Positions 3,051-60,634 of a stretch of 64,000 nt of DNA are shown here, in pieces (within the stretch, counting starts at the first letter, position 1; each line of letters opens with the position of its first letter). The stretch comes from Aphrocallistes beatrix (Eukaryota; Porifera; Hexactinellida; Sceptrulophora; Aphrocallistidae): the NCBI GenBank assembly GCA_963281255.1, contig OY725489.1, positions 124,001 through 188,000 of the forward strand, read 5' to 3'. Under the pieces are notes generated by a model, which was not told the origin of the DNA, did no database searches, and saw only the letters and a list, made by a program, of their open reading frames with translations. A program made the position numbers and the translations under genes.

Positions 3051-4751
3051 ATGGAAGAAGAAAAAGTGTACACGACTGTGAAAATAGTTAGGAAATTGAT
3101 AGAACGGAGAGTAGAGAAGCTTCATGAGCTCCTGGATGAAAGGAAACTAGCGTTGAATGAAGAGTTGGATGCTTTAGAACAAAGGTTTACTGACGAAAAC
3201 AAAAAGGATGAGGAGGAGTTGGAGAAATGGACAGCTTACAGAGATCAGACAGTAGACCTGTTTAAAGAGTACGAAGGAGTGGACAATGTTCAGCTGAGCC
3301 GCATTGAGCATCAAATCAAGGGAATCAACTCGAGGATAGAGACGAGACGAGTGCATCTGGAATGGGAAGACGACAGAGCTAAGAAGGAAATAAATCTGAT
3401 TGGGAGACTGGAAAGTTCGGAATCGATGGGTCAGACTGACTCGAATTACGAAGTGTTTCAGGCAATGAACTTAGAAGTCAACGACAAAGTACTCTACGAG
3501 GTGATGGATGAGGGAACTCCAGACCCCAGTGAGGCCTCTGTAATCGAAAGTACGTTCGTCCCGATCAAGAATAAACCCGGAGAATATCTAAAACCGCTGA
3601 GACCAGCACCTAGAGCGCCCTCACGAACACCCCCAATACCCCCACTCCCCTCGATACCCCCAATACCCCCACCACCCCCACAGGATAGGAAGCTCAAACG
3701 AATGTCGAGCCATGGTTACACTCTGGACAGCATAAAATATCCGTTGGAGAGGGCCCAATCGATGGACGATTCGAGTTTCAGTAATCCACAGGAATCAGAG
3801 CTGTACTGCGCCCTGCCCCCCTCGCAGAAACAAGGATGGCGGAACATCCTGCGGAAGAAGTCGCGGAGTATCGGAGATAAGCTGGACATGCCTGGAGTCC
3901 CGGCCCCTCCTACGCGAGACTACACGGTCACCTGTAAGTGCATGCTAGGCACTGGTCCCGGGCAGATTCTGAAGCCCAAGAATATAGCCATTTCCACCAA
4001 AACTGGCTGCATTTTCGTGGCTGAGAAAGGAAACAATCGAGTGCAAGCATTCGCGCCCACAGGAGACCCCATGTTCTCGTTCGGCAAGCGCTTGAAAGGG
4101 AACTCAATGATGAAACCGTATGGAGTCTGTGTGCTGAACGAAAAGGTGTACGTTTCTCAGACACAGTCTAACTGCATCATGGTGTTCAATACCAATGGGG
4201 AGTATTGTATGCAGTCGGGAGGGGAAGGAAGGGGGGAAGGCTGCTTCAACTTTCCGGCCGGATTGTCCACAGACGGGACAAGAATATTAGTTTGTGATTG
4301 CGCGAATAATCGGATTCAGGTCTTAACCCACCATCTCATGTTCCTTCAGTTTTACGGAATCGGGAAACTAACGTATCCGACGGACATAACAGTTGATTCA
4401 AATTCTAATTTGGTCGTTCTAGACAGATCTCCAACTTGTGTTCATATTTTCAACGGCAAAGGTGTCTACCAACGTAAACTCATCAATGTGTCCAAATGTC
4501 CGACACTCTCAAACCCTCTCTTCATCGCCATCAGTCCCAGAGGCAACATAGTGCTCTCTGACCTGCTGACTTGTAGCGTCAACATTTTCACCATGGATGG
4601 AAAGCTACTCTGGAGTTTAGGCGGGCTACACGACAAGGAGACGTTTGGAGAACCGAGAGGTGTGGCAACTGACCCATTAGGTCGACTGGTCGTAGTGTGC
4701 AACAAGGAGATAGGCCCTCTCATGATTATCCAATTCTCAAATGACCATTAG
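3051..4751 (+). CDS. Coiled-coil/NHL six-blade propeller protein, copy A2
   Basis: A 566-residue intronless reading frame. Residues 1-125 form a charged coiled coil (KLHELLDERK, EELEKWTAYRD). Residues about 180-220 are a proline-rich linker (PPIPPLPSIPPIPPPPP), a possible SH3/WW/EVH1 ligand. Residues about 300-566 hold six NHL blades with the usual P-x-G start and (V/L)xD/E..NNR(I/V)QxF end, for example VAEKGNNRVQAF and VCDCANNRIQVL. The architecture resembles TRIM2/3/71 without RING and B-box, so a ubiquitin-ligase role cannot be assumed; a scaffold or ligand-binding propeller is more likely. It lies tandem to A1 and A3 on the same strand, with about 420 and 235 bp spacers. A canonical AATAAA lies 117 bp after the stop (4868). 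Its last third is almost identical to A1, which suggests gene conversion. Confidence 0.88.
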   Translation: MEEEKVYTTVKIVRKLIERRVEKLHELLDERKLALNEELDALEQRFTDENKKDEEELEKWTAYRDQTVDLFKEYEGVDNVQLSRIEHQIKGINSRIETRRVHLEWEDDRAKKEINLIGRLESSESMGQTDSNYEVFQAMNLEVNDKVLYEVMDEGTPDPSEASVIESTFVPIKNKPGEYLKPLRPAPRAPSRTPPIPPLPSIPPIPPPPPQDRKLKRMSSHGYTLDSIKYPLERAQSMDDSSFSNPQESELYCALPPSQKQGWRNILRKKSRSIGDKLDMPGVPAPPTRDYTVTCKCMLGTGPGQILKPKNIAISTKTGCIFVAEKGNNRVQAFAPTGDPMFSFGKRLKGNSMMKPYGVCVLNEKVYVSQTQSNCIMVFNTNGEYCMQSGGEGRGEGCFNFPAGLSTDGTRILVCDCANNRIQVLTHHLMFLQFYGIGKLTYPTDITVDSNSNLVVLDRSPTCVHIFNGKGVYQRKLINVSKCPTLSNPLFIAISPRGNIVLSDLLTCSVNIFTMDGKLLWSLGGLHDKETFGEPRGVATDPLGRLVVVCNKEIGPLMIIQFSNDH

Positions 4752-4985
4752 TTAATCCAGCTCATTAGAATGTATAGTATGTAGTCAAGTTTGTTATTTC
4801 AATGTATGTAATCGTACACTTTACACCTTGTCAGAGTTCCATTGTAATCACCGAGAGGAGGAGTTTAATAAAATCTTACACAGTGATGCTTAGATAAATA
4901 CGTAGGAGGCGAATCTAAGTTTCAGTATAATAAGCTCACTGCTTTATTATAATATAATACCCTGGATTAGATCAATCACTATAGC

Positions 4986-6470
4986 ATGAGTGTAGTGGAA
5001 GTTTGTGAATCTTTCTTAACTGTGGAGGAGGTAGGGGATAGAATAAAGGAAAATATCTCCAACCTGAGAAGTCTGATAGACGAGAGAGAATCTGAACTAA
5101 ATCTCCAACTCCAGCGATTCAAAGTGGAATTAGGAGAGAGCAGTGACGGAAGAGAGATCAAGTTCGTTTGGGAAGCAGGGGAATTGTCCGAATACATAAA
5201 TCAACTCGGCCGTATCGAGCTGAGAGAGAAGAGAGTAGAAGTTAAAGAGTCTGAAATCCAGGATGAGAGAACCTTAGAAGCAGAGACGAATGAAAGTATG
5301 ACCGAAAAAGACGCCGCAACACACGAAACAGAGGAGAGTATCCCCAAACAGGAAGAATACATCTCGATGCAGCCTGTGAAGAGTAAACCCGCTTTATGGA
5401 AGAGAACTATGTCCGTTCCAGCAATCTTGGACGAAGAGGCGAACTACCAAGTCATGCACCCCATCGACAGAACCCCGGGATCGGATATAGACTTGGACCT
5501 CTACGGGTACGGCGCTGAAAGGGTGGAAGATAGCATGTATGACGTCATAGACGAATCGCGGCTCGGAGATCTGAGTGAGTACGCGGATTATAAGCGGAGA
5601 GTCACTCAGAAACTCAGCGCTAAAAAGAGCGGCGGTAAGAAAGCGGTCCCACTCATGGACCTACCGGTCGTGGCCACCTGTACAACCGGGAAGAAACTGG
5701 GACAGTTGAACAAACCCAAAGGCGTGGCTCTATCCGGGAAAGGGGACATCTTCGTAGCGGAGAAGGGGAACAATCGCGTCCAGGTATTCAACAGCGTAGG
5801 CAACAAGCTCTATACGTTCGGAGCAGGGAGGATGTCTGCCCCTTACGGGGTTCTCGTGCTGGGAGATTTCGCGTATGTGACACTCAGTAACATGCACATG
5901 CTGCAGATGTACACGGTGGAAGGAGACTTTGTGAAGCAGAAAGGGAAGGAAGGAAAGGAGGAAGGAAAACTGAAACACCCCACAGGGATCGACGGGGACG
6001 AAGTGAGGGGGAAGCTGTTCGTTTGCGACACAGACAATAACCGAGTCCAGATATTCGACAACAATCTCAGATTCCTCAAAGTCCTCAAAACGGTGAAACT
6101 GGATCGACCCTTAGAAGTGAAGGTGATCAAGTTCGGAGCTATCGTGGTGTTGGACAGGTCCCGTGAATGCGTGCACTTCATAAGCAGCACAGGGGAGCTG
6201 ATCAGGGAGATAGTGGACACGGAGCGATACCCTATGGTCCTGAACCCCCTGTACATAGCCCTGTCCCCTGATGGGAACCTGCTTCTGTCCGACTTCTCCA
6301 ACCACTGTATCCACGTGTTCTCTGAGGAGGGAAAACCGCTGTGGAAGATAGGACAGGAAGGAAAGGGGAAACCGTTTGAGGAGCCAAGGGGCATTGCATG
6401 TGACGACAAGGGGAGACTAGTGACTGTTTGTAACAAGAGCAAAAATATGCTACAGATCTTCGAGATCTGA
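4986..6470 (+). CDS. Coiled-coil/NHL six-blade propeller protein, copy A3
   Basis: A 494-residue intronless reading frame starting MSVVEVCESF at 4986. Residues about 10-110 are coiled coil (LRSLIDERESELNLQLQRF). An acidic linker contains YDVIDESRLGDLSEY, shared in spirit with the YETIDESILGDI linker of A1 and possibly a tyrosine-phosphorylation or docking segment. Residues about 230-494 are six NHL blades (VAEKGNNRVQVF, VCDTDNNRVQIF, LLSDFSNHCIHVF). It is the most diverged of the three tandem copies, with higher GC and no sign of a conversion tract. It is convergent with ATP6V1F, 108 bp away. Confidence 0.88.
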   Translation: MSVVEVCESFLTVEEVGDRIKENISNLRSLIDERESELNLQLQRFKVELGESSDGREIKFVWEAGELSEYINQLGRIELREKRVEVKESEIQDERTLEAETNESMTEKDAATHETEESIPKQEEYISMQPVKSKPALWKRTMSVPAILDEEANYQVMHPIDRTPGSDIDLDLYGYGAERVEDSMYDVIDESRLGDLSEYADYKRRVTQKLSAKKSGGKKAVPLMDLPVVATCTTGKKLGQLNKPKGVALSGKGDIFVAEKGNNRVQVFNSVGNKLYTFGAGRMSAPYGVLVLGDFAYVTLSNMHMLQMYTVEGDFVKQKGKEGKEEGKLKHPTGIDGDEVRGKLFVCDTDNNRVQIFDNNLRFLKVLKTVKLDRPLEVKVIKFGAIVVLDRSRECVHFISSTGELIREIVDTERYPMVLNPLYIALSPDGNLLLSDFSNHCIHVFSEEGKPLWKIGQEGKGKPFEEPRGIACDDKGRLVTVCNKSKNMLQIFEI

Positions 6471-44217: not shown

Positions 44218-45120
44218 TCAACAAGAAAATATCTGCAAACAGAATTTTTGATGAAAACACGCAACAACCAATTTCAGATTGTTAATGAGAGCGACTCCTT
44301 GAGGGTAATAAACCTCTCCAACTTCATTGCTAGAATCGCCGAGGATGTGGAGAAGTGCTCCTTCGTTTGAGAATACTTTGACTTGGCTGGTCTTCGGATC
44401 ACTGATAATTAAATTCTTACTAGAATCGAGACAGAAAAAGTAGGCGCATGTCACCTGTCCTTCCATATCACCCCGTGGGATCATAGATCGAATCTTGTCT
44501 CCGGTGTGAGAGAACACGTGTACGCAGAGAGCGTCTTTATTGCTGAGAACGTACACTTCTTCTGGAGTTAGCTTAACGTCTACGGGATGTGTCATGGAGT
44601 GGTGTAAAATGTGTCGATGATAGTGGAGGCTGCAATCGAGAATTATAATACGATTATTAACTTCATCAGTAATGAAGATTTCGCCGTTGGAAGAGACAGT
44701 GAGTCCATTTGGACCGTTAAATTCCCCAATTTTAGACCCTTTGCAACCAACTTTAGTAACAAACCGGTGGTCTACTGCCATTTTGAAGTGGAGCAGATAA
44801 TGTCCTATCGCATCTGTCAAGTAGATATTATCTCCATGGATCGCAATACCCCATAAATAGCTCATGTACTTATGTGTGAAAGTTTCTAAGAATTCACCAG
44901 AATCAGAAAAGATAGAAACGCGTGAGTTTAATCCTTCTGCAATATATATTCTGCTGGTGGTTGGGTCAATAGCGACACCACTAGGAGATATGTCGCTACA
45001 GGTTCTGCCACGTTTCTCCACGGCTACTAGATGGCCCAATTCTTGATAAGGGGTGTCAGCTGGTACTTCGAAGTGGCTGGTTTCTACAAATTGTGGTACA
45101 TCAGGAAGTTGAACTGCCAT
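44218..45120 (-). CDS. NHL-repeat protein without a coiled coil (copy B)
   Basis: A 300-residue intronless frame. The ATG at 45120 gives MAVQLPDVPQFVETSHF. Six NHL blades fill almost the whole protein: SPSGVAIDPTTSRIYIAEGL, YLWGIAIHGDNIYLTDAIGH, NGPNGLTVSSNGEIFITDEV, THPVDVKLTPEEVYVLSNKD, FFCLDSSKNLIISDPKTSQV, YYPQGVALINNLKLVVACF. There is no coil, RING or signal peptide; probably a cytosolic propeller. It is related to, but clearly distinct from, the NIQE-NHL group downstream. Confidence 0.85.
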   Translation of the reverse strand: MAVQLPDVPQFVETSHFEVPADTPYQELGHLVAVEKRGRTCSDISPSGVAIDPTTSRIYIAEGLNSRVSIFSDSGEFLETFTHKYMSYLWGIAIHGDNIYLTDAIGHYLLHFKMAVDHRFVTKVGCKGSKIGEFNGPNGLTVSSNGEIFITDEVNNRIIILDCSLHYHRHILHHSMTHPVDVKLTPEEVYVLSNKDALCVHVFSHTGDKIRSMIPRGDMEGQVTCAYFFCLDSSKNLIISDPKTSQVKVFSNEGALLHILGDSSNEVGEVYYPQGVALINNLKLVVACFHQKFCLQIFSC

Positions 45121-45546
45121 TTCTGTCACAAGAATATCCAAATAGATTTCTTAGAGAATAAAATCGCTATTTTTATGAACACTTAAGGTTAATATCATTG
45201 GCACTATAGGCTATCTATCTGCCATCATAAAATAGATTTATTTTAACGAAGATTATTAATACTCAATAATAATACCTGAAATTTCAATATTCCTCAAACA
45301 CTCAATTTAATTTGTTCTGAGCCCGAGTACCAGCACAAGGTAAGTACACCTTGCCTATACGAACTACTCCAAATTTTTGCACTAACGATCTCGTTAACTT
45401 CACCGTCCTTGGTGCCAACCTAGAAATTTTACAAACAACTCCCAAAGTACAGTTACACTAAAGATGCAGTATGGTAATATAAGCGTGCTATTTCCCCGAG
45501 ATTTCGCATCCAATGAGGGACAGAATAAGATAATCAAACACTATGA

Positions 45547-47252: not shown

Positions 47253-48506
47253 TTAGAACAATTGTAAACAATAATTAGGATTATCAGACAATACAAACAA
47301 AATGCCAGAATTAGAAATGGCAATACCACGTGGATACATGAATTCTCCTTTCCCGTTCCCTTCTCTTCCAATGGTGTGGAGGAGCTCCCCGGAGTTTGAG
47401 AGTATCTTGATGGCATGGTGTCCCCTGTCACTAACGAGGATATTCTGTTCAGAGTCCAGACAGAAGAACCAAGGACTCCGTACCAAACATCTCAGATCTT
47501 CTCCCTGAGACACGCAGGAGGTAAGGAGGTCTCCACTTCTGGAGAAGAAGTGGATGCAGTTGGGACTCTCGTCTAATACCACCACTTTATCTGTCGTTAG
47601 TTTCACTTCATGAGGTTCTGATAGCGATCCTTGTCCGATAGTCTGTTTGTATTGTAGGAGGTTAGAGAACACGGATACTCTGTGTTCCAATTGGTCAGCT
47701 ACAAACACGTCTCCATTACAGTCCACACTTAATCCCCGTGGATTATACAGCTGTCCTTCATTATTCCCCAAACCACCAGCTCTGTTGAGTAGTTGGTGGC
47801 TGTTCTTACAGAACTGGAATAGCGTGTGATAGTCTGTTACGAGGATGTGATTATCAGTGACTGATATTCCCCAAGGATAGGATAGTACTTCCTCTCCAAA
47901 GTGAGATAGGAACTCTCCTTGGAAGGACAGTACCTGTACGCGACTGTTCCAACAATCCGCTATATAAACCTTCTCATTCACTTCGTCTAGAGACAGTCCC
48001 CTACCATTAAGCTGTTTATCACCTTTCCCTTCCGTCCCAGCGGTTAGGATGGGTTGTGTCTTTTGAGAGTAATGTGGTGCTTCCAGCTGGACTACCTCCC
48101 CGAACTGCTCTATCTGGGTCTGAAGGAGGGAGAGGGTGGGACAGGAGAAGGAGAGGTTGGGGAGTGGGGTGGGAACACACAGCTGCTGCTTGTACTCTTC
48201 GTACACGAGTCCTGCTTGCTCGTGAGCGGGGAGGTTGATGTTCACTTTACTCATTTCATTCAGATGCAGCTGAGTTTGATCCAACTCTTCGATGGCTGCG
48301 ACACGAGTGGACTCTTTGTTGTGGAAATCATCGCGAAGATGTGCCACTACTTGGCAGAGAGTGTCTCTCCTCTCGATCAGCTGATCGATCAGGCCATTCA
48401 ATGTGTCCGTGATTCGCGCGGCGATGCGATCGAAATGCGCAATTGTGTCGTAAGGGACAATTTCTTGAATATTTTCTTGAATATTTTCTTGAATATTGGT
48501 TGCCAT
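47253..48506 (-). CDS. NIQE-NHL propeller protein, unit 1 (C1)
   Basis: A 417-residue intronless frame from ATG 48506. The N terminus is MAT followed by three NIQE repeats and IVPY. Residues about 25-150 are a coil (IAARITDTLNGLIDQLIERR; EELDQTQLHLNEM) as in TRIM coiled coils. Residues about 160-417 are six NHL blades ending NYCLQLF. No RING or B-box is present. It differs from C2 mainly at two spots per blade: LSYPWG, LYNPRG, LSEPHE, VRSPWF, MYPRG, and ADQLEH, LDESPN, SDRGHH. Likely a cytosolic oligomeric binding propeller. An X-box lies about 103 bp upstream, at 48609-48622. It is intact. Blade 2 lacks two codons present in C2 (TDYH against TDHGNH). Confidence 0.88.
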   Translation of the reverse strand: MATNIQENIQENIQEIVPYDTIAHFDRIAARITDTLNGLIDQLIERRDTLCQVVAHLRDDFHNKESTRVAAIEELDQTQLHLNEMSKVNINLPAHEQAGLVYEEYKQQLCVPTPLPNLSFSCPTLSLLQTQIEQFGEVVQLEAPHYSQKTQPILTAGTEGKGDKQLNGRGLSLDEVNEKVYIADCWNSRVQVLSFQGEFLSHFGEEVLSYPWGISVTDNHILVTDYHTLFQFCKNSHQLLNRAGGLGNNEGQLYNPRGLSVDCNGDVFVADQLEHRVSVFSNLLQYKQTIGQGSLSEPHEVKLTTDKVVVLDESPNCIHFFSRSGDLLTSCVSQGEDLRCLVRSPWFFCLDSEQNILVSDRGHHAIKILSNSGELLHTIGREGNGKGEFMYPRGIAISNSGILFVLSDNPNYCLQLF

Positions 48507-48608
48507 TGCTTAGGACTTTGGAAGAATCTTGTTGAATAGAAATATTATACTTTAACTAAGACACAATCTATATTGTATGTAATATGAGAATACCAATTTA
48601 CGTCAATG

Positions 48609-48622
48609 GTTGCTATGGAAAC
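48609..48622. promoter_or_regulatory. RFX X-box upstream of NHL C1
   Basis: GTTGCTATGGAAAC fits the RFX consensus RYYNYY-N2-RRNRAC, 103-116 bp upstream of the ATG. The same 14-mer is at 51724-51737, 55387-55400 and 55944-55957. Confidence 0.6.
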
Positions 48623-49095
48623 TACTGTAAAGTTAGGGAATTTACTGATTGGCTAAGCAAGTTGTTGGAAATACTTGTATGTTGTTATTCTAATTTATGT
48701 ATTGTGGATGAGAGCCATTCTTTCTGACATGGTTGCTATGGTAGGTTAGTTGTTGTGTTGATTAACCACTTACAATTCCTTTGCAACTCATTTCCTTTTT
48801 CAACAGCTTCTGATACTAGAAAAAATTCTGAAAGTTTAAAAATAGATCCTCCATAAATATTTATAGATTGAAAGTGTAACAATTTGAGGATATAGAAAAA
48901 ACTTGTCTCTCCTGGTAAACACTTTCCCAATAAAATCATTGTAAAAACCATCCCGTATTTGAAAACTTTAAAATAAAATTAAATGAATTTATGCACGTAA
49001 AATATGATTATAGACGTTTAAAAATCAGGAAGATGCGAAATTTGGTGAAAATCAAAGTATTAAATTTTGCAGGAGCGCGGATACTGAGATACATA

Positions 49096-49180
49096 CAGTA
49101 GAACTCGGTTAGTACGTACTCGGGATAAGACGTACTTTTTTTCCCTTCCCGGAGGGGTACGTCTTATCTGAGTTCTACCG
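49096..49180. mobile_element. Pogo-like MITE, 85 bp
   Basis: TIR CAGTAGAACTCGGTTAGTAC against ATCTGAGTTCTACCG, TA on both sides. Confidence 0.7.
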
Positions 49181-50021
49181 TACATACAAATGGACGGACG
49201 TGGTACTGCCGTCTTTGCTATAAGGACAGCTCTCACACAAACTTCACTTAAATGGAACCTAAATTTAGCATTCAAATCCTCTGGACTGATTTTGGACAGA
49301 AAGGTCACCGCTTAATCGAGGCAAAATGTCCTCTGACCGATGTGAGCCTATTAAGCGGAGTCGACTGTATATGCGATATATCTACCCTCACTCCAGATTC
49401 ACAGAAGACAGTATTGCAACTAAACTAGCGCATACTCGAATTAACATTGCGTAGCTGAGGCAGAGTGAAGAGTTCGAGAGTGCTAGGAGGTCCGTTGTAT
49501 GCTCCTACGGAAACCTTTGGGACCTAGAGCCACTGAAACTCTATTTATAGTCCAATCAAATACCTGCGTTGCCATTTCATGAACAAAGTTCATAGATTTG
49601 AACAAAAGTCCTGATTTGATCAATGAGAAGTTTTGAGTTGTGGCAAGAACTTGGCATGAATATGTGGCTGTGTGGCATTAACAAGCTAAACAGTCCATCT
49701 GGAACACTGACCACCACCAAACCACAGATGTGTCGACCTGTAGCGACACAATGGCATAGTGGAGAAGACGGGAGTTCCTCTGAGTCAATCTTTCTGACCA
49801 ATGAGAAGCAGCGTTCACTGACTTACAGACAGGGTGAGGTGTTCGGAAATCCAACTAAGGAGCATTTCAGTTGGTTAAAATGGTGACACTTCTGGAACTG
49901 TTAAAGTCGGGAGTAAAAGCGAGTAGATGGAGACACAAAGTGTCTCCATGGTCTCTGCTGTTTATGAACTTGTTTAGAAAAGTCTCATTTTGCTAAAAAT
50001 AGAGGTGTTAGATTGTGTCGC

Positions 50022-50182
50022 CTTGCAGGTACTGGCTGAGTTCCTCGAGGTAGGAAGTGTCGCCGGTGTGAACAAGTTGTCGCTCTCTGTCCAGTCCCTC
50101 TGCCAGTGCCATCTGAGTGGGTCTCACAGTGCAGCAGAGACTGTTCGCGTGGATCACACTCACGGGGTCTATCAGCTCCTGA
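50022..50182 (-). pseudogene. Truncated kynurenine-aminotransferase exon, unit 2
   Basis: Only the 3' half of the exon remains (QELIDPVSVIHANSLCCTVR to QYLQ). The PLP-lysine half is deleted and replaced by the downstream junction ACCTAAATAGAAAAAAAACA. The donor has mutated from GT to GC. Confidence 0.75.
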
Positions 50183-50350
50183 CCTAAATAGAAAAAAAAC
50201 AAGCATTTTCACACCTTTAAAAATAGATTAAATATCTCTAAGCACTTTGCCTTGTAGGACACTAGCAACAACAAATTAAACATTCAAATAAACAAATTTA
50301 CTTACAGTTCTATAATTAGACAATAATAGAAAACAAACAAAATAAATATT

Positions 50351-51622
50351 TTAGAACAATTGTAAACAATAATTAAGATTATTAGACAATATAAACAAAA
50401 TGCCAGAATTAGAAATGGCAATACCATATGGAGACATGAATTCTCCTTTCCCGTTCCCTTTCCTTCCAATGGTGTGGAGGAGCTCCCCGGAGTTTGAGAG
50501 TATCCTGATGGCATGGTGTCCCCACTCACTAACGAGGATATTCTGTTCACAGTCCAGACAGAAGAAAAAAGGAAACAGTACCAAACATCCCTGAGACACG
50601 CAGGAGGTAAGGAGGTCTCCACTTCTGGAGAAGAAGTGGATGCAGTTGGGACTCCAGTCTAGCACCACCACTTTATCTGTAGGTAGTTTCACGTCTTGAG
50701 GGTTAGATAGCGATCCTTGTCCGATAGTCTGTTTGTATTGTAGGAGGTTAGAGAACACGGATACTCTGTGGTTCCATTGCTCAGCTACAAACACGTCTCC
50801 ATTACAGCCCACACTTAATCCCCGTGGACGAGACAGCTGTCCTTCATTACTCCCCTCACCAACAGTTCTGTTGAGTAGTTGGTGGCTGTTCTTACAGAAC
50901 TGGAATAGCGTGTGATTACCATGGTCTGTTACGAGGATGTGATTGTCAGTGACTGATATTCCCCAAGGTCTGGATAGTACTTCCTCTCCAAAGTGAGATA
51001 GGAACTCTCCTTGGAAGGACAGTACCTGTACGCGACTGTTCCAACAATCCGCTATATAAACCTTCTCATTCACTTCGTCTAGAGACAGTCCCGCACCAAT
51101 AAGCTGCTTATCACCTTTTCCTAACGTCCCAGCGGTTAGGATGGGTTGTGTCTTTTGAGAGTAATGCGGTGCTTCCAGCTGGACTACCTCCCCGAACTGC
51201 GCTATCTGGGTCTGAAGGAGGGAGAGGGTGGGACAGGAGAAGGAGAGGTTGGGGAGTGGGGTGGGAACACACAGCTGCTGCTTGTACTGTTCGTACAAGA
51301 GTCCTGCTTGCTCGTGAGCGGGGAGGTTAATGTTCACTTTTCTCATTTGATTCAGATGCAGCTGAGTTTGATCCAACTCTTCGATGGCTGCGACACGAGT
51401 GGACTCTTTGTTGTGGAAGTCATCGCGAAGATGTGCCACTACTTGGCAGAGAGTGTCTCTCCTCTCGATCAGCTGATCGATCAGGCCATTCAATGTGTCC
51501 GTGATTCGCGCGGCGATGCGATCGAAATGCGCAATTGTGTCGTAAGGGACAATTTCTTGAATATTTTCTTGGATATTTTCTTGAATATTTTCTTGGATAT
51601 TTTCTTGAATATTTGTTGCCAT
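50351..51622 (-). CDS. NIQE-NHL propeller protein, unit 2 (C2)
   Basis: A 423-residue intronless frame from ATG 51622, with five NIQE repeats after MAT (C1 has three). The coil is nearly identical to C1 (MRKVNINLPAHEQAGLLYEQ). The six blades share the same frame and flanking codons, but the repeated variable spots read LSRPWG, LSRPRG, LSNPQD, VLFPFF, MSPYG and AEQWNH, LDWSPN, SEWGHH. Three codons of the C1 blade-5 loop (EDL) are absent. The X-box at 51724-51737 is conserved at the same distance. It is intact and probably expressed in the same cells as C1. Confidence 0.88.
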   Translation of the reverse strand: MATNIQENIQENIQENIQENIQEIVPYDTIAHFDRIAARITDTLNGLIDQLIERRDTLCQVVAHLRDDFHNKESTRVAAIEELDQTQLHLNQMRKVNINLPAHEQAGLLYEQYKQQLCVPTPLPNLSFSCPTLSLLQTQIAQFGEVVQLEAPHYSQKTQPILTAGTLGKGDKQLIGAGLSLDEVNEKVYIADCWNSRVQVLSFQGEFLSHFGEEVLSRPWGISVTDNHILVTDHGNHTLFQFCKNSHQLLNRTVGEGSNEGQLSRPRGLSVGCNGDVFVAEQWNHRVSVFSNLLQYKQTIGQGSLSNPQDVKLPTDKVVVLDWSPNCIHFFSRSGDLLTSCVSQGCLVLFPFFFCLDCEQNILVSEWGHHAIRILSNSGELLHTIGRKGNGKGEFMSPYGIAISNSGILFILSNNLNYCLQLF

Positions 51623-51639
51623 TGCTTCACTTTTGAATA

Positions 51640-52525
51640 GTTTGTGTTGAATAGAAATATTATACTCTAACTAAGACACAATCTGGATTATATGTAATAT
51701 GAGAATACCAATTGACGCCAATGGTTGCTATGGAAACTACTGTAAAGTTAGGGAATTTACTGATTGGCTAAGCAAGTTGTTGGAAATATGTTGATTATTC
51801 TAATTTATTGATTATGAAGAGGTACAAGAATTTGTCTGAATCATAATCTGGAATATTATCACTTGAGATTAAAATGCAATTTTTACATTCAATTGGACAA
51901 TAATTTCGAACTTGAAAAGCTCCCTTTCACACTTTTCTGATGATAATTCACATTTACAAAATATTGACTTTCAATCTACGATTCATTATATAAAAAAACA
52001 AAAATTACGATTCGGGCAAATGACCACTTAGAAATTGAGACAAATCCTGCCTTCCTGTTTAGGAATTATTTTTTCTGCCATGGTTGTTAGGGTCGATTTG
52101 TTGAAGGCCATTAAAAATAATTTACTTTTTCAGTAGTAAATGAAAGAATTCTGAAGTTTTGATGAAGACAAGTGCGCTTCGCTTGCTTGCGCTGCGCAAC
52201 TGGCGGACACTTTATGTCTTCCAAGATCAGACATCACACACCCTCACTCTTGGTCTATAGACCACGGTGGAACTCGCATTATTCGTGCTGTATCTTGAGA
52301 TCGTAATATTTTGAGATCCTAGTATTAAGTAACCATGGATGATTTAGTACGAGATATCCTGAGGTTAGCGTAGAATTATGAGATTTCGCTTCGCATACTT
52401 AAATGGCCTTGTAGCTCAATCAGATTTATCGCAGTACAAATACGTATATTTACACAAATACAAAGATAGCATAAACAACTTGTTTAACATCAATATATAC
52501 ATTAGATTTGTCTCCATAGCAATAG
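51640..52525. other. NHL C2 5' flank and spacer
   Basis: Contains the X-box 14-mer at 51724-51737, otherwise AT-rich spacer. A truncated inverted Helitron-like 3' end lies at 52168-52215 (AAGTGCGCTTCGCTTGCTTG, GGACACTTTATGTC). No gene seen. Confidence 0.5.
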
Positions 52526-53118
52526 TTATTGCAAGTAAGAATTTTCCTTGATGACGGCAAACAAGTACCAGTAAAGGAACACCATGAGGCTGTAGTGGAA
52601 TATGGCGCCTTGGATGTTGCACTGAATGGTCGTGTCAGTTCTGGACTCGAATAGGCTCAAGTGTTTGCAGTAGAAAGGCTGTGGGAGAATCTGCCCGCTC
52701 AAAATGCAAACTGATTGGACGAGAACGGACAGAATGAGGTAGAAGAAAATGATGTGAGGGAAATCCCAAAGTGTCCCGCCTATTTTCAGCCACGTGGCGA
52801 TACCCAATAAGCTCACGACGAAACTGATAAAGGCGCCAGAGAATACGAACACGCGCCAAGCGATGAAATACTCGTCACCTCCAGGCGCGAACGCCAGACA
52901 TTCCGGAGTGCACTGTGTGTTGTTATTCACGAACCTAGCCACACAAGTTGTGTTACTAATTAAGGCGCCATACGTTGAGTTGAGTCCTGATTGGTTGGAG
53001 CTGGCAAACTGGAACCAAGTCTGGTAGATATGGAACTTAGCTAGCGCCTGTGATGCGGTGTAAGGACAGGAATTGGAACCAGAAAAGGTGTCCAGGAATG
53101 TGTCGTTTTGTGACACTT
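52526..53118 (-). pseudogene. Frizzled-like 7TM receptor, truncated exon
   Basis: An exon-like open region with acceptor TTCCAG/AAGTG at 53119 (no ATG; starts VSQNDTFLDTFSGSNS). It encodes an extracellular stretch with cysteines and N-glycosylation sites (NTT, NNT), then a first TM (VFSGAFISFVVSLLGIATWL), a second (FPHIIFFYLILSVLVQSVCI), a loop, and a third (HYSLMVFLYWYLFAVI). The spacing and the CN-x-QG-x-IFHYSLM pattern resemble the frizzled/class F 7TM region. It stops after TM3 with no donor visible, so TM4-7 and any CRD are missing. The family call is tentative. Confidence 0.5.
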
Positions 53119-53164
53119 CTGGAACTTTTAAAGTCGGGAGTAAAAGCGAGTAGATTGAGACTAG

Positions 53165-53525
53165 GGCAGTAGTCGATCCTCAAAAAAAGGATCTAGATCC
53201 GATCAAGATCCCCAATTAGATCCCTTCAATAATAGTCAGAGGACTATCATTTTAGTACTACAGCCCTGGAAGGAGATGTCTTATGGCATGGACGGCGTGC
53301 AATGTCCGTCTGCTGCAGCCTGGGGCGTACTTAGTGCTTAAGTTAGTATTCAAACCATAAAACACATATATTTAATCAGCATTAATTTTAGCACTTTCAC
53401 CTCCAACTTGGGGAATAAAAAGAAAAGGATCGGATCGAATTCAGTAAGTAAGTTTCGATCCGAACCCGATCCTAATTTTGAAAATGATCTTTCGATCCTG
53501 GATTGAAAGATCCTAATGCACTAAT
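53165..53525. repeat. GATC-rich repeat block, unit 3
   Basis: Clusters of AAAGGATCTAGATCCGATC and GATCCGAACCCGATCC flank a conserved spacer (TGGCATGGACGGCGTGCAAT). The same arrangement is at 59110-59530 and 63545-63870. Confidence 0.65.
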
Positions 53526-53618
53526 TGAGACACAAAATTTCCTCTTGGTATCTGCTGTTTATGAATTTATTTAGAAAAGTTTCAATTTGCTAAAAATAGA
53601 GGTGTAAAATTGTGTCAC

Positions 53619-53922
53619 ATTGCAGATACTGTCTGAGTTCCTCGAGGTAGGAAGTGTCGCCGGTGTGAACAAGTTGTCGCTCTCTGTCCAGTCCCTCTGC
53701 CAGTGCCATCTGAGTGGGTCTCACAGTGCAGTAGAGACTGTTCGCGTGGATCACACTCACGGGGTCAATCAGCTCCTGAGGCCCAATCACCCAACCCACT
53801 TTCCATCCAGTCACGGAGAATATCTTCCCTGCGGAGTGAACGGACAGTGTCCTGTCCCACATGCCATCCAGACATGCCATTCTCGCCTGCTGTAACCCGT
53901 CAAACACGTTGAACTCGTATAC
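53619..53922 (-). pseudogene. Orphan kynurenine-aminotransferase exon, unit 3
   Basis: A full 304 bp exon, 98-99% like unit 1 by eye. The PLP-lysine motif is intact (HSAGKIFSVTGWKVGWVIGP). The last exon base is changed (CTGCAA-T/GTGAC). Confidence 0.78.
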
Positions 53923-54196
53923 CTGCGTTAGCCAATCAGATTAACGGAGAGCATTCCAAGGGTCCAGAATTTAGGAAAGTGATATTCTGCTAAAATAGAG
54001 AGTAAGCTGATGTTATCGACCTAATTAGCCAATCGAAAACAATCATTTTCACATCTTTAAGAATAGATTAAATATCTCTAAGCACTTTGCCTTGTAGGAC
54101 ACTAGCAACAACAAATTAAACATTAAAATAAATCAAATTTACTTACATTACAGTTCTATAATTAGACAATAATAGAAAACAAACAAAATAAACATT

Positions 54197-55286
54197 TTAG
54201 AACAATTGTAAACAATAATTAGGATTACTAGACAATACAAACAAAATGCCAGAATTAGAAATGGCAATACCATGGGGATTAATGAATTCTCCTTTCCCGT
54301 ACCCTTCCCTTCCAATGGTGTGGAGGAGCTCCCCGGAGTTTGAGAGTATCTTGATGGCATGGTGGTCCCTGTCACTAACGAGGATATTCTGTCCACAGTC
54401 CAGAGAGAAGAAACAAGGATAACATACCAAACATCCCTGATCTTCTCCCTGAGACACGCAGGAGGTAAGGAGGTCTCCACTTCTGGAGAAGAAGTGGATG
54501 CAGTTGGGACTCTGTCTAGTACCACCACTTTATCTGTCGTTAGTTTCACGTCTTGAGGGTTCCTTTATATAATAAAAGATAGTATTTTTTATTAAAGATA
54601 GTACTTATTAAAGATAGTACTTCCTCTCCAAAGTGAGATAGGAACTCTCCTTGGAAGGACAGTACCTGTACGCGTCTGTTCCAACAATCCGCTATATAAA
54701 CCTTCTCATTCACTTCGTCTAGAGACAGTCCCATACCATTAAGCTGCTTACCACCTTTCCCTTCCGTCCCAGCGGTTAGGATGGGTTGTGTCTTTTGGGA
54801 GTAATGCGGTGCTTCCAGCTGGACTACCTCCCCGAACTGCTCTATCTGGGTCTGAAGGAGGGAGAGGGTGGGACAGGAGAAGGAGAGGTTGGGGAGTGGG
54901 GTGGGAACACACAGCTACTGCTTGTACTGTTCGTACAAGAGTCCTGCTTGCTCGTGAGCGGGGAGGTTAATGTTCACTTTTCTCATTTGATTCAGATGCA
55001 GCTGAGTTTGATCCAACTCTTCGATGGCTGCGACACGAGTGGACTCTTTGTTGTGGAAGTCATCGCGAAGATGTGCCACTACTTGGCAGAGAGTGTCTCT
55101 CCTCTCGATCAGCTGATCGATCAGGCCATTCAATGTGTCCGTGATTCGCGCGGCGATGCGATCGAAATGCGCAATTGTGTCGTAAGGGACAATTTCTGGG
55201 ATATTTTCTTGAATATTTTCTTGGATATTTTCTTGAATATTTTCTTGGATATTTTCTTGAATATTTTCTTGAATATTTGTTGCCAT
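54197..55286 (-). pseudogene. NIQE-NHL gene, unit 3 (C3), multiply broken
   Basis: The ATG at 55286 is followed by seven NIQE/NIPE repeats and an intact coil. A CAG-to-TAG change at the KQQLC step stops the frame (54912-54914). Blades 2-4 are replaced at 54559-54612 by an AT-rich filler (TAAAGATAGTA repeats). A one-base loss occurs in the blade-4 LD-x-SPN codons. The last two blades are open to NYCLQLF and show their own variable-spot residues (VCYPCF, SDRDHH, INPHG). Confidence 0.85.
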
Positions 55287-55386
55287 TGCTTCACTTTGAA
55301 TAGTTTGTGTTGAATAGAAATATTATACTTTAACTAAGACACAATCTGGATTATAAGTAATATGAGAATACCAATTGACGTCAATG

Positions 55387-55400
55387 GTTGCTATGGAAAC
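55387..55400. promoter_or_regulatory. X-box upstream of NHL C3
   Basis: GTTGCTATGGAAAC, preserved although the gene is broken. Confidence 0.5.
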
Positions 55401-55449
55401 TACTGTAATGGGGGAATTTACTGATTAGTTAGGTAAGTTGTTGGAAATA

Positions 55450-56752
55450 TGTTGAAAGGAATGTCTGAAGGGTTTAAAAATAGATCTTCAATAAAATTTC
55501 ATAAATCGAAAGTATAACAATTCACGGATAGCGAAGAGGTAACTTATGTCTGTCCTGTAAAGACTTTCCATATAAAGTCATCTAGAATCCATCTACAGCC
55601 GACTCCGCTTAATAGGGTCAACCACTTAATCGGCCACTTTTGGCAGGACTGAAATAGCACCCACACATAGAGCTAATACAGGTTTAGCTAACCACTACGC
55701 TCAGAAATTCATTGGAATCTATCCAGAATCCCAAATCTAAGAAAAATTCATAATTGCCAACTATCCCGTGTTGCTAATATTCTCAGTGCTATATTATAAT
55801 ACATTCTCATTGTGTCGCTTCTATCATGGCACAGGTTGGAATGTATGCAAACTGTTGCTAGCTTCCAGGAACAAAACCCCTGAACTCCACAAGACACAAT
55901 CAATATTATATGTAATATGAGAATACTAGTGTACGTCAATGGTTGCTATGGAAACTACTGTAAAGTGAGGGAATTTACTGATTGGTACCCAAGTTGTTGG
56001 AAATATGTTGATTATTCTAATTTATTGATTGTGGATGAGATCCATTCTTTCTGACAAAATACCTAAGCACGGCTGTTTGAAAATATAATTGGTAATATTT
56101 GTTAATCTAAGTCAGTGTTTCTTATATTTCTCAGACCTCGATACTCTCCCCCAAAGAATTAATCTTTCAAATCAAATTATTATAAGACGGAGTTACTATT
56201 ATGAATAATCGAGTAATTACACTGAATGTCAGCGGTGGACAACCTGGGGCCCGCGGGACATTTGTGCCCCAAGAGACTAGATTTGATGCCAGCGCTTCTT
56301 CCAAAACACTCTATTATGGCGCCTGCGTGTTGGTGATTGCAATATATAATGGGTCCGCCTAATTTTGGAATGGAATTGATGCTGAATAGAAATATATTTT
56401 ATACAATCATTATAGATGTTTCGATGTATTTCACATATTTTCCCTTATATAAGTATAATTTTAGTTTAACATTGCTTCCATATAGGTTATAATGTCAGTT
56501 CTTGCTAAGGCCATGGTAGTGTGACCGTAACAAGAGGTCAGTGTCTATTGACAGTTTACATCGTCGGTGCCTATGGATAGCCTCTATGCTGAGTGTCAAT
56601 GGTCGGTGTCTATAGTGAGTTTATATCGTATTGTGTCGCATTGTGTCGTATTGTGGGTACAGCTGGTCTGTTGTGGAATCTGTCATCCAAAGGAACAGAG
56701 AGGCTGTCCACCATGGCATCGTCATAAAAGAAAATCGATAGTAACAAAAATA
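55450..56752. other. Non-coding spacer with orphan X-box flank
   Basis: 55880-56060 is another copy of the NHL 5' flank including the X-box (55944-55957) with no gene attached. A half pogo-like end lies near 55593 (CAGCCGACTCCGCTTAATAG). 56530-56650 is a minisatellite (GTTTATATCGT, GTGTCTAT units) that resumes at 57617-57695. No coding region is supported. Confidence 0.55.
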
Positions 56753-56817
56753 CAGTGTTCTGCATTTGTACTTAAGTGCACTTAAGTACAATTGTACTTA
56801 AGTACTTCTGTACTTAA

Positions 56818-56918
56818 CCGTAGAATGCCCAGAGGGGACACAGTGTCCCCGATATCGCGGATGTCTCCCAGTCATTTTCTATGGCACTGAAGCCATATAA
56901 ATGCTGGGCATTCTACAG
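56818..56918. mobile_element. PiggyBac-like MITE nested in the hAT relic
   Basis: TIRs CCGTAGAATGCCCAG and CTGGGCATTCTACAG, flanked by TTAA on both sides (56814-56817, 56919-56922). 101 bp. Confidence 0.82.
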
Positions 56919-57239
56919 TTAAGTACACATTTTTGAGTACTTGTACTTGTACTTAAATACTTTCCAAATGTACTTGAAATTTAAATGACTTTTTAAGTAC
57001 TTTGAAGTACTCATCTGCTCCTGTTGAGCGCCTTTTCAGTATCGCTGGAAAGGTCTTTCGTCCAGATAGATGGAATCTTTCTGACAAAACTTTGAAACAC
57101 TGATGTTCTTAGGTCTAACACGGATTGACCTTCATTATTCATTTACATTTATTGTGTCTGAACGTAGAGAACTAATCATCATCCATCAGCAATATTAATT
57201 CCCATTCAATTTCAAAAGTACTTGTAATTGTACTAAGTA

Positions 57240-57534
57240 CAGTACACCCTCGCTAATCCGAACAGCTCTGTGCCAATGGTCGAAAAAATCGTTCGGATTA
57301 GTGAATTTGTTCCGATTAGTGAAATAACACTAATTCAATGGGGTATTAACTGTAAAAAATTTGAATTGTTATAATATTAAGAACAATAATTTGTTATAAT
57401 TGCTTCTTTAATGAGGTTTCTCAATCTGAAGTGTATAATATTATAAAGTTGATTTAAAGCATAGAGGCGAAAAATATTATATTTCGGGTGTTCGGATGTA
57501 AGAATGAAGGGTTCGGATTAGCGAGGGTGCACTG
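57240..57534. mobile_element. Pogo-like MITE nested in the hAT relic
   Basis: TIRs CAGTACACCCTCGCTAATCC and GGATTAGCGAGGGTGCACTG, TA on both sides, 295 bp. Confidence 0.82.
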
Positions 57535-57879
57535 TACTTTCATTTCAATTGTAATTGTAATTTTTTTTGGAGTACTTGTACTTAAGTACTTTCAAAAGTA
57601 CTTAAACCCAGCACTGATTGTCAGTTTATATCGTCGGATCCTATGGGTAGCTTCTATGATCAGTACCAATGGTCAGTGTATATTGTCAGTTTAACTCTTC
57701 TTCCAATATTGAACAAGAAAGGTCATCACAAGCTGTCATTCTAGTTAATACAGCTGTTGGGCTGGCATCGTTCATGTAATAATATAGTGACCGATCAGCA
57801 TCTGAGATGGGCACAGACCAGAGTTGCACGCGGCCGACATTTCTTATCGGCCCGTGGGCCGTGTAGATCGAATATAATA

Positions 57880-58620
57880 GTTTGCGAGCCCGTGGGCCGG
57901 AAATCTTGGCAGGACTCCCAGAGATGACAACTGAGACGATGTTTTTAATTGTCAGGAAGTACCATTTAAGGAATATTTGACAAAATAGAACTTTGTTAGT
58001 TTTCACTTATTTGTGTATGCAGAAACTCACTTTTTGTTTATCCTTACTATTAAAACTCGATTAATGTATATTTATATATATATATATGATTTTTGGCATG
58101 TGGGAGTCTTTTGGCTATGGCTCCAGTAAGTTCTGAGCTCAGAGCAAAATGTCGACTCATCATGGAATTATGACGTCATTGTCACATTTTTAAAAGTTAA
58201 GCAACAGAGTTATTCGGGCATAACTCAGCCATTATAGGAGATAGAAGCTTGAAACTTTAATAGAATCTGTATACTAACATGCCTCACATATGATACAACT
58301 ATCATCAAAAAATGATGACTCATCACTCTGTGATGTCGTCATCATTACGCATCAAAATTTTAAAATTGACAAATTTGGTGATTTTTCGAGTGATATCGAT
58401 TTTCACTAAGATGGACATATTTAGAGATGTTATCTCCCTTTTAATTAACCAATGTGACCCCAGGCGACCGAACGGAGCCTCCGGCGGACACAAAGTGTCC
58501 GCTAGCCGCGCAGCGGAAGCAAGCGAAGCGCACTTGTAGTTAGTAACTTACAAAGCGGGGCAAAAATATTTGTGGGCATCTTGCGGGCCGAATAATTCAA
58601 TCGCGGGCCGCGGTTACAAA
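57880..58620. repeat. Dispersed repeat module R, copy 2 (interrupted)
   Basis: Matches 46125-46372 up to TTTTTGTTTA at 58040 and again from TAGTTAGTAACTTAC at 58537. The interruption is the Helitron-like element. Confidence 0.75.
58041..58536 (+). mobile_element. Helitron-like non-autonomous element, 496 bp
   Basis: Starts TCCTTACTATTAAAACTCGA and ends AAGCGAAGCGCACTTG. A short CCGCGCAGCGG hairpin lies about 20 bp before the 3' end. Comparison with two empty copies of module R (46281 and 62889) shows precise insertion between A and T with no duplication. The TC start, 3' hairpin and A/T target fit Helitrons; the CTTG end departs from the usual CTRR. Confidence 0.72.
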
Positions 58621-58752
58621 TTTTGATCTGCGATCAAATCTGGTAAGACTTCCATGCTTGTTTTTTTAGTATTAGGGGGTTGTTTAAAAATATTTATTTC
58701 GTGGATTGATCTTAAATGAATGTGTAATCCATTGGTGCTTCGATAATGTTAT

Positions 58753-59060
58753 CTACCTTCCTCTCCTCGTCTTCGACATATGTAGCCTGGCAATGACTCC
58801 TGACTTCTTCCAAGAATTGATGAAGGTCTCCTCTTCCACGTCATCCGGAGTGCACTGTGTGTTGTTATTCACGAACCTAGCCACACAAGTTGTGTTACGA
58901 ATTAAGGCGCCATACGTTGAGTTGAGTCCTGATTGGTTGGAGCTGGCAAACTGGAACCAAGTCTGGTAGATATGGAACTTAGCTAGCGCCTGTGATGCGG
59001 TGTATGGACACGAATTGGAACCAGAAAAGGTTTCCAGGAATGTGTCGTTCTGTGACACTT
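58753..59060 (-). pseudogene. Frizzled-like receptor exon, second copy, shorter
   Basis: The first 69 residues after the acceptor repeat those at 53118 (NDTFLETFSGSNSCPYTASQ to NNNTQCTP). The sequence then leaves homology (DDVEEETFINSWKKSGVIAR), so all TM segments are missing. Confidence 0.6.
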
Positions 59061-59109
59061 CTGGAACTTTTAAAGTCGGGAGTAAAAGCGAGTAGATTGA
59101 GACTAGGGC

Positions 59110-59530
59110 AGTAGTCGATCCTCAAAAAAAGGATCTAGATCCAGATCACGATCCTAACTTATAAAAGGATCTTCGATCCGATCAAGATCCCCAAAAAGAT
59201 CCTTTCAATAATAGTCAGAGGATATCATTTTAGTGCAGCTCCTGGAAGGAGATGCCTTATGGCATGGACGGCGTGCAATTCCGTCCGTCTGTGGCAGCCT
59301 GGGGCGTACTTAGTGCTTAAGTTAGTATTCAAACCATAAAACACATTAAAAAAATATATTTAATCAACATAAATTTCAACACTTTCACCTCCAACTTGGG
59401 GATTAAAAGAACAAGGTTTCGATCCGATCTCAATCACGATCCTAATTTTATATTTAAGGATCGTCGATCCGATCTCGATCCTCAAAAAAGGATCGCGATC
59501 CGGATCTTTCGATGGATCGAAAGGACCTAA
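59110..59530. repeat. GATC-rich repeat block, unit 4
   Basis: Same order of parts as 53165-53525, with expanded GATCCGATCTCGATCC clusters near 59420-59510. Confidence 0.65.
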
Positions 59531-59632
59531 TGGCATAATTGAGACACAAAATTTCCTCTTGGTCTCTGCTGTTAATGAATTCATTTAGAAAAGTCTCAAT
59601 TTGCTAAAAATAGAGGTGTTAGAATGTGTCAC

Positions 59633-59936
59633 CTTGCAGGTACTGTCTGAGTTCCTCGAGGTAGGAAGTGTCGCCGGTGTGAACAAGTTGTCGCTCTCTG
59701 TCCAGTCCCTCTGTCAGTGCCATCTGAGTGGGCTTCACAGTGCAGTAGAGAGTGTTCGCGTGGATCACACTCACGGGGTCTATCAGCTCCTGAGGCCCAA
59801 TTGCCCAACCCACATTCCATCCAGTCACGGAGAATATCTTCCCTGCGGAGTGAACGGTTAGTGTCCTGTCCCACATGCCATCCAGACATTCCATTCTCGC
59901 CTGCTGTAACCCGTCAAACACGTTGAACTCGTATAC
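59633..59936 (-). pseudogene. Orphan kynurenine-aminotransferase exon, unit 4
   Basis: A full 304 bp exon with intact GT donor and AG acceptor. The PLP motif is HSAGKIFSVTGWNVGWAIGP, with K-to-N after the catalytic lysine step. The frame is open. Confidence 0.78.
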
Positions 59937-60210
59937 CTGCGTTAGCCAATCAGATTAACGGAGAGCATTCCAAGGATCCAGAATTTAGGAAAGTCATATT
60001 CTGCTAAAATAGAGAGTAAGCTGATGTTATCGACCTAATTAGCCAATCGAAAACAATCATTTTCACATCTTTAAGAATAGATTAAATATCTCTAAGCACT
60101 TTGCCTTGTAGCACACTAGCAACAACAAATTAGACATCCAAATAAATAAATCAGATTTACTTCACAGTTCTATAATTAGAAAATAACAGAAAATAAACAA
60201 AATAAATATT

Positions 60211-60634
60211 TTAGAACAATTGTAAACAATAATTAGGATTATCAGACAATACAAACAAAATGCCAGAATTAGAAATGGCAATACCATATGGTTCAATGAA
60301 TTCTCCTTTCCCGTTCCCTTCCCTTCCAATGGTGTGGAGGAGCTCCCCGGAGTTTGAGAGTATCTTGATGGCATGGTGTTCCAAGTCACTAACGAGGATA
60401 TTCTGTTCACAGTCCAGACAGAAGAAATGAGGATTCCATACCAAGCATCCCTGATCTTCTCCCCGAGACACGCAGGAGGTAAGGAGGTCTCCACTTCTGG
60501 AAAAGAAGTGGATGCAGTTGGGACTCAAGTCTAGTACCACCACTTTATCGGTCGTTAGTACGTCTCGAGGGAAACGTAGCGATCTTTGTCCGATAGTCTG
60601 TTTGTATTGTAGGAGGTTAGAGAACACGGATACT
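60211..60634 (-). pseudogene. NIQE-NHL gene, unit 4 (C4), 5'-truncated
   Basis: Only blades 4-6 and the end of blade 3 remain (VSVFSNLLQYKQTIG to NYCLQLF). The frame is open, with yet another set of variable-spot residues (LRFPRD, LDLSPN, VWNPHF, SDLEHH, IEPYG). A codon is lost before LTTDKV. The 5' junction at 60635 looks like a splice acceptor (CATTTCCAG/GAGTATC), so it could still serve as an exon. Confidence 0.75.

Follow-up and report, generated by a model that had tools for sequence, protein, structure and literature searches.

A multigene family of NHL propellers in the glass sponge Aphrocallistes beatrix with one hypervariable face, a candidate recognition repertoire

The genome of the glass sponge Aphrocallistes beatrix (100.5 Mb, 28 contigs) contains a large family of genes for NHL beta-propeller proteins, several of which lie in the 64,000-nucleotide stretch analysed here, called the window (G000:C2:124001-188000, contig C2 being distinct from gene copy C2). 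In these genes a constrained scaffold is combined with about 24 codons, located at the D-A and B-C ends of the six blades and on one face of the propeller, that have been driven apart between paralogues. On balance, sequence and a structural model favour the explanation that the family is a germline-encoded multigene recognition repertoire carried on the NHL scaffold. An initial annotation of the window had proposed such a repertoire, and this broad reading is supported by the uneven variation, by a ratio of nonsynonymous to synonymous rates (dN/dS) above 1 for the class of sites and by their assignment to loops of one face.

The same annotation had described four NIQE-NHL copies, C1 to C4, that share one reading frame. 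All four are on the minus strand; C1 and C2 are intact single open frames of about 420 codons each, whereas C3 and C4 proved, on alignment to C2, to be broken. C3 aligns in two blocks, at query bases 12-653 and 922-1275, and some 51 bases without a match stand in for the lost middle. C4 aligns only from query base 860 on, without the N-terminal region and the first blades. The blade-5 codon sets reported for the copies were recovered on the minus strand, encoding RSPW at 47466-47480, LFPF at 50564-50578, CYPC at 54410-54424 and WNPH at 60424-60438. The C2 protein (423 aa) serves as reference for residue numbering. Five NHL proteins of the window, C1 and C2 included, matched NHL and related propeller models in Pfam, and the same scan found no RING, B-box, NACHT, TIR or WD40 match at E<=1. 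The nearest solved structures by sequence are TRIM2, TRIM3, TRIM71 and Thin (E 5e-34 to 5e-15). No signal peptide or membrane segment was apparent when the proteins were inspected by eye without a predictor, and no within-gene repeat other than the NIQE units was found in 20 of 29 repeat families examined (minimum length 60).

Variation was measured in a first family of 39 genes, taken from 101 rows of genome matches (50 loci retrieved, of which those with a long open frame and an identity to C2 of 70% or more were kept). Two members (L015 and L021) are shortened. Three cluster sets hold 10, 8 and 17 genes, with four of the 39 outside all three, and all diversity figures compare paralogues within one assembly. 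In the codon alignment, 24 NHL codons among the 411 testable ones are hypervariable, with 5 to 14 residues per site, and most other columns are near-constant. Within the three clusters the 24 codons show a proportion of nonsynonymous differences (pN) of 0.42, 0.44 and 0.46, compared with 0.05, 0.04 and 0.06 in the NHL scaffold, where the proportion of synonymous differences (pS) is 0.08, 0.12 and 0.15. The two most similar genes, with 37 differences in 1188 scaffold bases (3.1%), disagree at 18 of 23 hypervariable codons. No variable string occurs twice among the 39, and the nearest two are 11 sites apart.

This pattern was replicated in several ways. When sites were picked in one cluster and measured in another, in six directions, their pN was 0.38-0.43, compared with 0.04-0.06 for other NHL codons; the N-terminal control, treated by the same procedure, gave 0.025-0.073. 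The top-24 sites of two clusters have 14-17 in common versus 1.4 expected. Three further subfamilies, c3, c12 and c8, were also compared, each about 25% identical to the first family and two of the three mutually 66%. The c3 and c12 sets (n=15 each) were built from 14 and 15 loci with L004, L006 being dropped as a duplicate of L070, and the c8 set (n=14) from 13 loci and L001. With the columns fixed from the first family, pN in c3, c12 and c8 was 0.35, 0.31 and 0.44 (pS 0.32, 0.27 and 0.32), and 0.07, 0.06 and 0.13 at other NHL codons. Any two of the four families have 14-16 of their top-24 sites in common versus 2.3 expected. The hypervariable pattern is confirmed to exceed chance, and the predicted unevenness across paralogues holds, with variation concentrated mainly at 24 of 411 codons and cross-validated between clusters.

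Selection was assessed with a self-written implementation of fixed effects likelihood (FEL) on one tree without recombination. In the first family dN exceeded dS at p<0.05 for 28 of 411 sites, 16 of them among the 24. With a dS shared between sites, 27 sites passed Bonferroni correction, all 24 among them, with dN/dS (omega) of 3-30. In the smaller subfamilies FEL reached p<0.05 at 4, 4 and 9 sites and the shared-dS model passed Bonferroni at 10, 6 and 1. Positive selection is clear for the site class and for the strongest sites, less so for single sites. The expectation of dN/dS above 1 at the hypervariable sites was borne out for 16 of 24 by uncorrected FEL and for all of them with shared dS; it was not borne out by a parsimony counting test, nor beyond two sites by FEL after Bonferroni.

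The origin of the diversity was examined at codons ending in T or C, where a T/C change is silent. In the three clusters silent mismatches in variable codons amounted to 0 of 361, 15 of 276 and 107 of 1404 pairs (0, 0.054 and 0.076), values close to those of the NHL scaffold (0.032, 0.050 and 0.070), while positions 1 and 2 of the same variable codons mismatched at 0.30-0.50. In c3, c12 and c8 the variable codons gave 0.081, 0.108 and 0.202, the scaffold 0.066, 0.062 and 0.133, and positions 1 and 2 0.36-0.59. Since a whole-codon mutator would strongly raise the silent rate, the diversity is attributed to selection acting on the residue rather than to a mutator of this kind; the test speaks to a mutator of whole codons and not to one limited to positions 1 and 2. 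Codon-wide hypermutation was rejected on this ground, the silent third-base rate being at most 1.7 times that of the scaffold and far below positions 1 and 2. In addition, silent divergence does not increase beside the hypervariable codons, which disfavours old linked haplotypes, and haplotype blocks persisting beside a homogenised scaffold were rejected. Blade shuffling between genes was likewise unsupported: sharing at a site does not predict sharing elsewhere in the same blade beyond shuffled columns, the observed value being reached by 13, 19 and 35 of 100 column shuffles.

Several observations weigh against a selected recognition repertoire. The trees ignore recombination, FEL after Bonferroni correction leaves two sites, and of its 28 sites at p<0.05 as many as 12 do not belong to the 24; four of these 12 are in the N-terminal region and one is in an A-B loop. 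The counting test gave no site after Bonferroni and four at p<0.05, with a local ratio of 1.79 for the 24; in our judgement this null is due to saturation and path averaging. Synonymous differences are raised at the hypervariable codons too, with a pS of 0.17-0.29 within clusters (under path averaging) and of 0.15-0.32 at the cross-validated sites, and pN/pS at these codons amounts to 1.5-2.5 in the first family but just 1.1-1.4 in the other three subfamilies. The silent mismatch at variable codons is 1.7 times that of the scaffold in c12 and 1.5 times in c8. Moreover, the flanks, alignable in short stretches (5/21 to 45/45 pairs by cluster and side), diverge by 8-14%, above the coding scaffold, so the scaffold pS may understate the neutral rate. 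Finally, no signalling domain was found in the five window proteins scanned with Pfam.

The position of the variable sites in the fold was examined with AlphaFold2, run on an alignment of seven window sequences (predicted template modelling score, pTM, 0.62). The C2 model is a six-bladed propeller of 24 strands, in which ten-residue blocks from residue 161 on have a predicted local distance difference test (pLDDT) of 74-96. Together with the Pfam NHL match (2.6e-26), it identifies C2 as a predicted six-bladed NHL propeller protein. The N-terminal 160 residues were modelled poorly (pLDDT 27-60), and a long helix at 27-95, a possible coiled coil, was predicted at low confidence (pLDDT 50-60). 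Of the variable sites, 23 can be mapped onto the model: 20 fall in D-A or B-C loops, and three correspond to the second residue of strand A. The 24th site lies near the D-A end of blade 4/5 and is inserted with respect to C2. Variable sites thus make up 20 of 87 D-A/B-C residues versus none of 49 A-B/C-D residues (Fisher p=5e-5). In an up-and-down blade of four strands, the D-A and B-C loops are on one shared face. The suggestion that the variable sites occupy one face of the propeller was upheld, the assignment being made by loop type in the model.

Within the blade motif, variable residues stand on both sides of the conserved P of x-P-x and come after the D of D-x-x-N. A structure of zebrafish LIN41 with RNA names 14 RNA-contact residues in the part of the report used here (PMC5908797), and all 14 letters match the human TRIM71 chain at one offset. 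These contacts sit at P-2, P-1, P+1, D+1 or D+2 of the blade motif, and 20 of the 24 hypervariable sites could be placed at such positions; at the blade 1 D-A and blade 6 B-C sites at contact positions the motif residue itself is replaced. Because the sites share the LIN41 contact positions of the motif, the variable face corresponds to the known ligand face of NHL propellers. With random codons of equal base composition as the reference, W (5.0x), Y (2.8x), C (2.3x), E (2.2x) and D (1.6x) are enriched at the variable sites, V, I, T and A are depleted (0.2-0.35x) and P is absent, a composition that resembles that of a binding surface.

The family is large. Three genome-wide protein-query searches gave 101, 101 and 102 rows, and after pieces at most 600 bases apart were merged at least 245 distinct NHL loci remained, a lower bound, with about 100 candidates scored per search. 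Among the loci found, 176 of 245 span at least 1100 bases, and a neighbouring locus lies within 10 kb for 170 and within 20 kb for 190. Broken copies include C3, C4 and several stop-containing rows among the genome matches. At G000:C12:4250346-4265122, five NHL copies occur at an exact spacing of 3380 bases, four of them scoring identically to the query, which is best read as a very recent tandem amplification. Silent divergence between clusters was lower in the NHL scaffold than in the N-terminal part for C2-C6a (0.208 vs 0.343) and C6a-C6b (0.188 vs 0.324), and was 0.150 vs 0.164 for C2-C6b; the lower scaffold values suggest that the NHL part has been exchanged between the arrays C2, C6a and C6b. 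B-box sequences gave 24 matches genome-wide, none within 10 kb of the 245 loci, and four of them (C3:486-496 kb) are 14-24 kb from one NHL locus. On the minus strand at G000:C15:410071-415407, a B-box match lies a few kb from two same-strand NHL matches, possibly a conventional TRIM-NHL gene with introns.

How the face is used, and against what, has to be weighed among several explanations. A rather unlikely one is that it reads polymorphic self proteins, in fusion or gamete compatibility or in the choice of endogenous clients, and not microbes. Its geometry equals that of the fungal HNWD allorecognition receptors, and sponges discriminate self from non-self specifically according to the part of PMC5450542 consulted; however, the gene number is large for one self ligand, and the signal peptide or membrane segment missing from the by-eye inspection makes display at the cell surface unlikely. 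It is quite unlikely that the paralogues use the RNA-binding face of LIN41 and Brat to bind RNAs that differ between them, be they of viruses, of transposons or the animal's own mRNAs. This would fit the overlap with LIN41 RNA-contact positions and the nearest structures, but Arg and Lys make up 8 of the 14 contacts named for LIN41, whereas the net charge of the variable sites ranges from -8 to +5 with a median of +1 in the 39 paralogues, and thus no common basic RNA-binding surface exists. The enrichment of Glu and Asp at these sites points the same way.

Two further explanations concern the variation itself. Rewriting of the hypervariable codons by a targeted mutator of retroelement or deaminase type could account for the whole-codon swaps, the number of residues per site and the near-saturation within young clusters, yet it is very improbable given the silent T/C changes at, or at most 1.7 times, the scaffold rate. 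In diversity-generating retroelements variation is confined to template adenines, giving AAY-derived codons; the codons frequent here are TGG, GAA/GAG, AGG and TTG, unlike such sets, and the AAY-derived pattern was not found, no search for a reverse transcriptase having been made. Relaxed constraint in a decaying, over-duplicated family is hardly credible: it would agree with the broken copies and stop-containing rows, but pN/pS within clusters is 0.34-0.63 in the scaffold and 0.43-0.61 in the N-terminal columns, purifying selection was detected at 79 sites by the counting test and 83 by FEL (uncorrected p<0.05), and residues at the variable sites are non-random.

Under the favoured explanation of a recognition repertoire, each gene would encode a protein whose C-terminal part forms a six-bladed NHL propeller and whose helical segment at the N-terminus likely serves as a coil for dimerisation, and the protein would probably be cytosolic, no signal peptide being apparent by eye. 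Gene duplication would provide the copies, and selection by changing ligands would then drive their faces apart; these ligands would most likely be proteins, whether of microbes, of viruses or of non-self cells. Binding as a dimer would give avidity. The outcome would be relayed through a partner protein, since RING, B-box, TIR and NACHT were not found in the scanned window proteins. A bolder idea, whose chances seem slightly short of even, is that hundreds of NHL propellers are the main inborn variable receptors of a non-bilaterian animal, soluble and antibody-like with a face of 20-24 residues, an independent counterpart of the fungal WD40 receptors; in that case the D-A/B-C face of propellers would be a general solution for recognition repertoires.

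Known variable receptor scaffolds are immunoglobulin, leucine-rich repeat, B30.2 and FREP, as well as WD40 in fungi. The fungal HNWD receptors trigger the cell death of incompatibility. The closest geometry is that of the HNWD genes of Podospora anserina (het-d, het-e), where, in the sections of PMC1805685 drawn on here, four codons per WD40 repeat are positively selected. They form pairs on either side of a conserved residue; each repeat has one such pair in its d-a loop and another in its b-c turn, all on one face. Both systems are multigene propeller families with a constant scaffold and selected d-a/b-c pairs on one face, as far as that source describes the fungal one; here the pairs rest on FEL and loop assignment, the strength of selection per site being mixed. 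They differ in the propeller, WD40 there and NHL here, in the NACHT domain of the fungal proteins, not found by Pfam in the five window proteins, and in size, a family of 10 in the sections cited versus at least 245 loci. In addition, near-identical repeats within the fungal genes exchange units according to the same source, and no such repeat occurs in the families examined here. Two unrelated propeller families therefore use the same geometry.

TRIM-NHL proteins are usually single-copy conserved regulators with RING and B-box. The sponge proteins resemble TRIM2/3, TRIM71/LIN41, Brat and Thin in sequence, in the propeller and in the contact positions, but a hypervariable face is not described for these in the portions of the literature consulted. 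TRIM (RBCC) proteins are defined by a coiled coil preceded by RING and B-box, and neither of these two domains was detected by Pfam in the five window proteins, other paralogues not being scanned singly. The nearest TRIM-type parallel is provided by teleost finTRIM and by TRIM5alpha, an expanded TRIM-type family with loops of a C-terminal ligand domain diversified under positive selection in the part of PMC2657112 available; there the domain is B30.2 and not NHL, RING and B-box are present, and 16-17 B30.2 sites are positively selected.

No description of a hypervariable NHL face was found among the papers listed for the open-licence PMC literature. Tachylectin-2 is a beta-propeller lectin, not an NHL protein, and is not known as a family of hundreds of loci. 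In coral it is reported as a putative immunity gene with high amino-acid diversity and positive selection (PMC2880987, in part). NHL repeats are very abundant in sponge transcriptomes according to the portion of PMC3538665 consulted, an abundance that such a repertoire could explain, and a figure on sponge receptors includes NHL in its domain key (PMC8242945, in part). If true, an NHL-based repertoire in an animal of an early-branching lineage would extend the list of scaffolds and show that the same propeller face was chosen twice. The location of the 24 sites and of many paralogues opens the way to direct tests of ligand capture, of polymorphism within populations and of the response to grafts or microbes.

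Table 1. NHL features of the window and example arrays in the genome. Window positions except for arrays; residues are those of C2. Hypervariable codons rest on codon alignment, FEL and loop assignment in the model.
Feature	Position	Strand	Remarks
C1	47253..48506	-	intact single open frame; Pfam NHL 2.2e-28; L010 of the 39-gene set; NIQE repeats, helical region, six-blade NHL propeller
C2	50351..51622	-	intact open frame; Pfam NHL 2.6e-26; structure-modelled
C2 N-terminal helical region, possible coil	51338..51565	-	conserved; internal control for rates
C3	54197..55286	-	broken copy; middle gone, frame shift in C-terminal part
C4	60211..60635	-	truncated; C-terminal propeller part only
NHL gene, longer proline-rich linker	3051..4751	+	Pfam NHL 3e-19
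Additional NHL gene	4980..6470	+	Pfam NHL 3.6e-23
NHL gene without long N-terminal helical region	44218..45141	-	Pfam NHL 4.3e-19
Residue 177, blade 1 D-A loop	51092..51094	-	hypervariable codon
Residues 193, 194, 196, blade 1 B-C loop	51035..51046	-	hypervariable codons
Residue 218, blade 2 D-A loop	50969..50971	-	hypervariable codon
Residues 234, 235, blade 2 B-C loop	50915..50923	-	hypervariable codons; 236 variable too
Residues 256, 258, 265, blade 3 D-A loop; 267, strand A start	50822..50857	-	hypervariable codons
Residue 283, blade 3 B-C loop	50768..50776	-	hypervariable codon; 285 variable too
Residues 307, 309, blade 4 x-P-x	50696..50704	-	hypervariable codons
Residue 323, blade 4 B-C	50654..50656	-	hypervariable codon
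Residues 349, 350, 352, blade 5 x-x-P-x	50567..50578	-	hypervariable codons; LFPF in C2
Residues 367, 368, blade 5 B-C	50519..50524	-	hypervariable codons
Residues 397, 399, blade 6 x-P-x	50426..50434	-	hypervariable codons
Residue 414, blade 6 B-C	50381..50383	-	hypervariable codon
Example array	contig C2 0.17-0.41 Mb		
Example arrays	contig C6 4.72-4.90 and 5.22-5.27 Mb		
Example array	contig C3 2.1-2.25 Mb		
Example array	contig C12 3.8-4.27 Mb		
Example array	contig C8 0.19-0.98 Mb		

Elsewhere in the window, a minisatellite with units of about 30-31 bases (43920-44134) adjoins the NHL gene at 44218-45141. The genes of a tandem array on the minus strand (10184-21213) carry an F5/8 type C domain at the C-terminus, matched in Pfam at 4.6e-10 by the copy at 10187-11176. 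Differences among five copies are greatest in a few short segments of this domain, and the array is perhaps a second diversified family. Also on the minus strand, an open frame at 28102-32244 (1380 codons) matches the motor region of dynein heavy chain (Pfam AAA_6 2e-153), with simple-repeat stretches in other frames nearby.

Genome-wide, no match to PF01582, the sole TIR model tried, was found, which leaves TIR partner domains without support. At least 94 NACHT loci are present, and many of them consist of one open frame of some 1100 codons; the one examined (L102) has a Pfam NACHT match and a sub-threshold death effector domain, and no NHL. Finally, contig G000:C28 (L103, L104) is an 18.0 kb mitochondrial contig, with an atp9-type frame at 193-456 (Pfam ATP-synt_C 2.6e-12), one tRNA reported by ARAGORN at bacterial settings and 11 TGA codons inside its COX1 match, and short segments seem, by eye, to recur between its genes.

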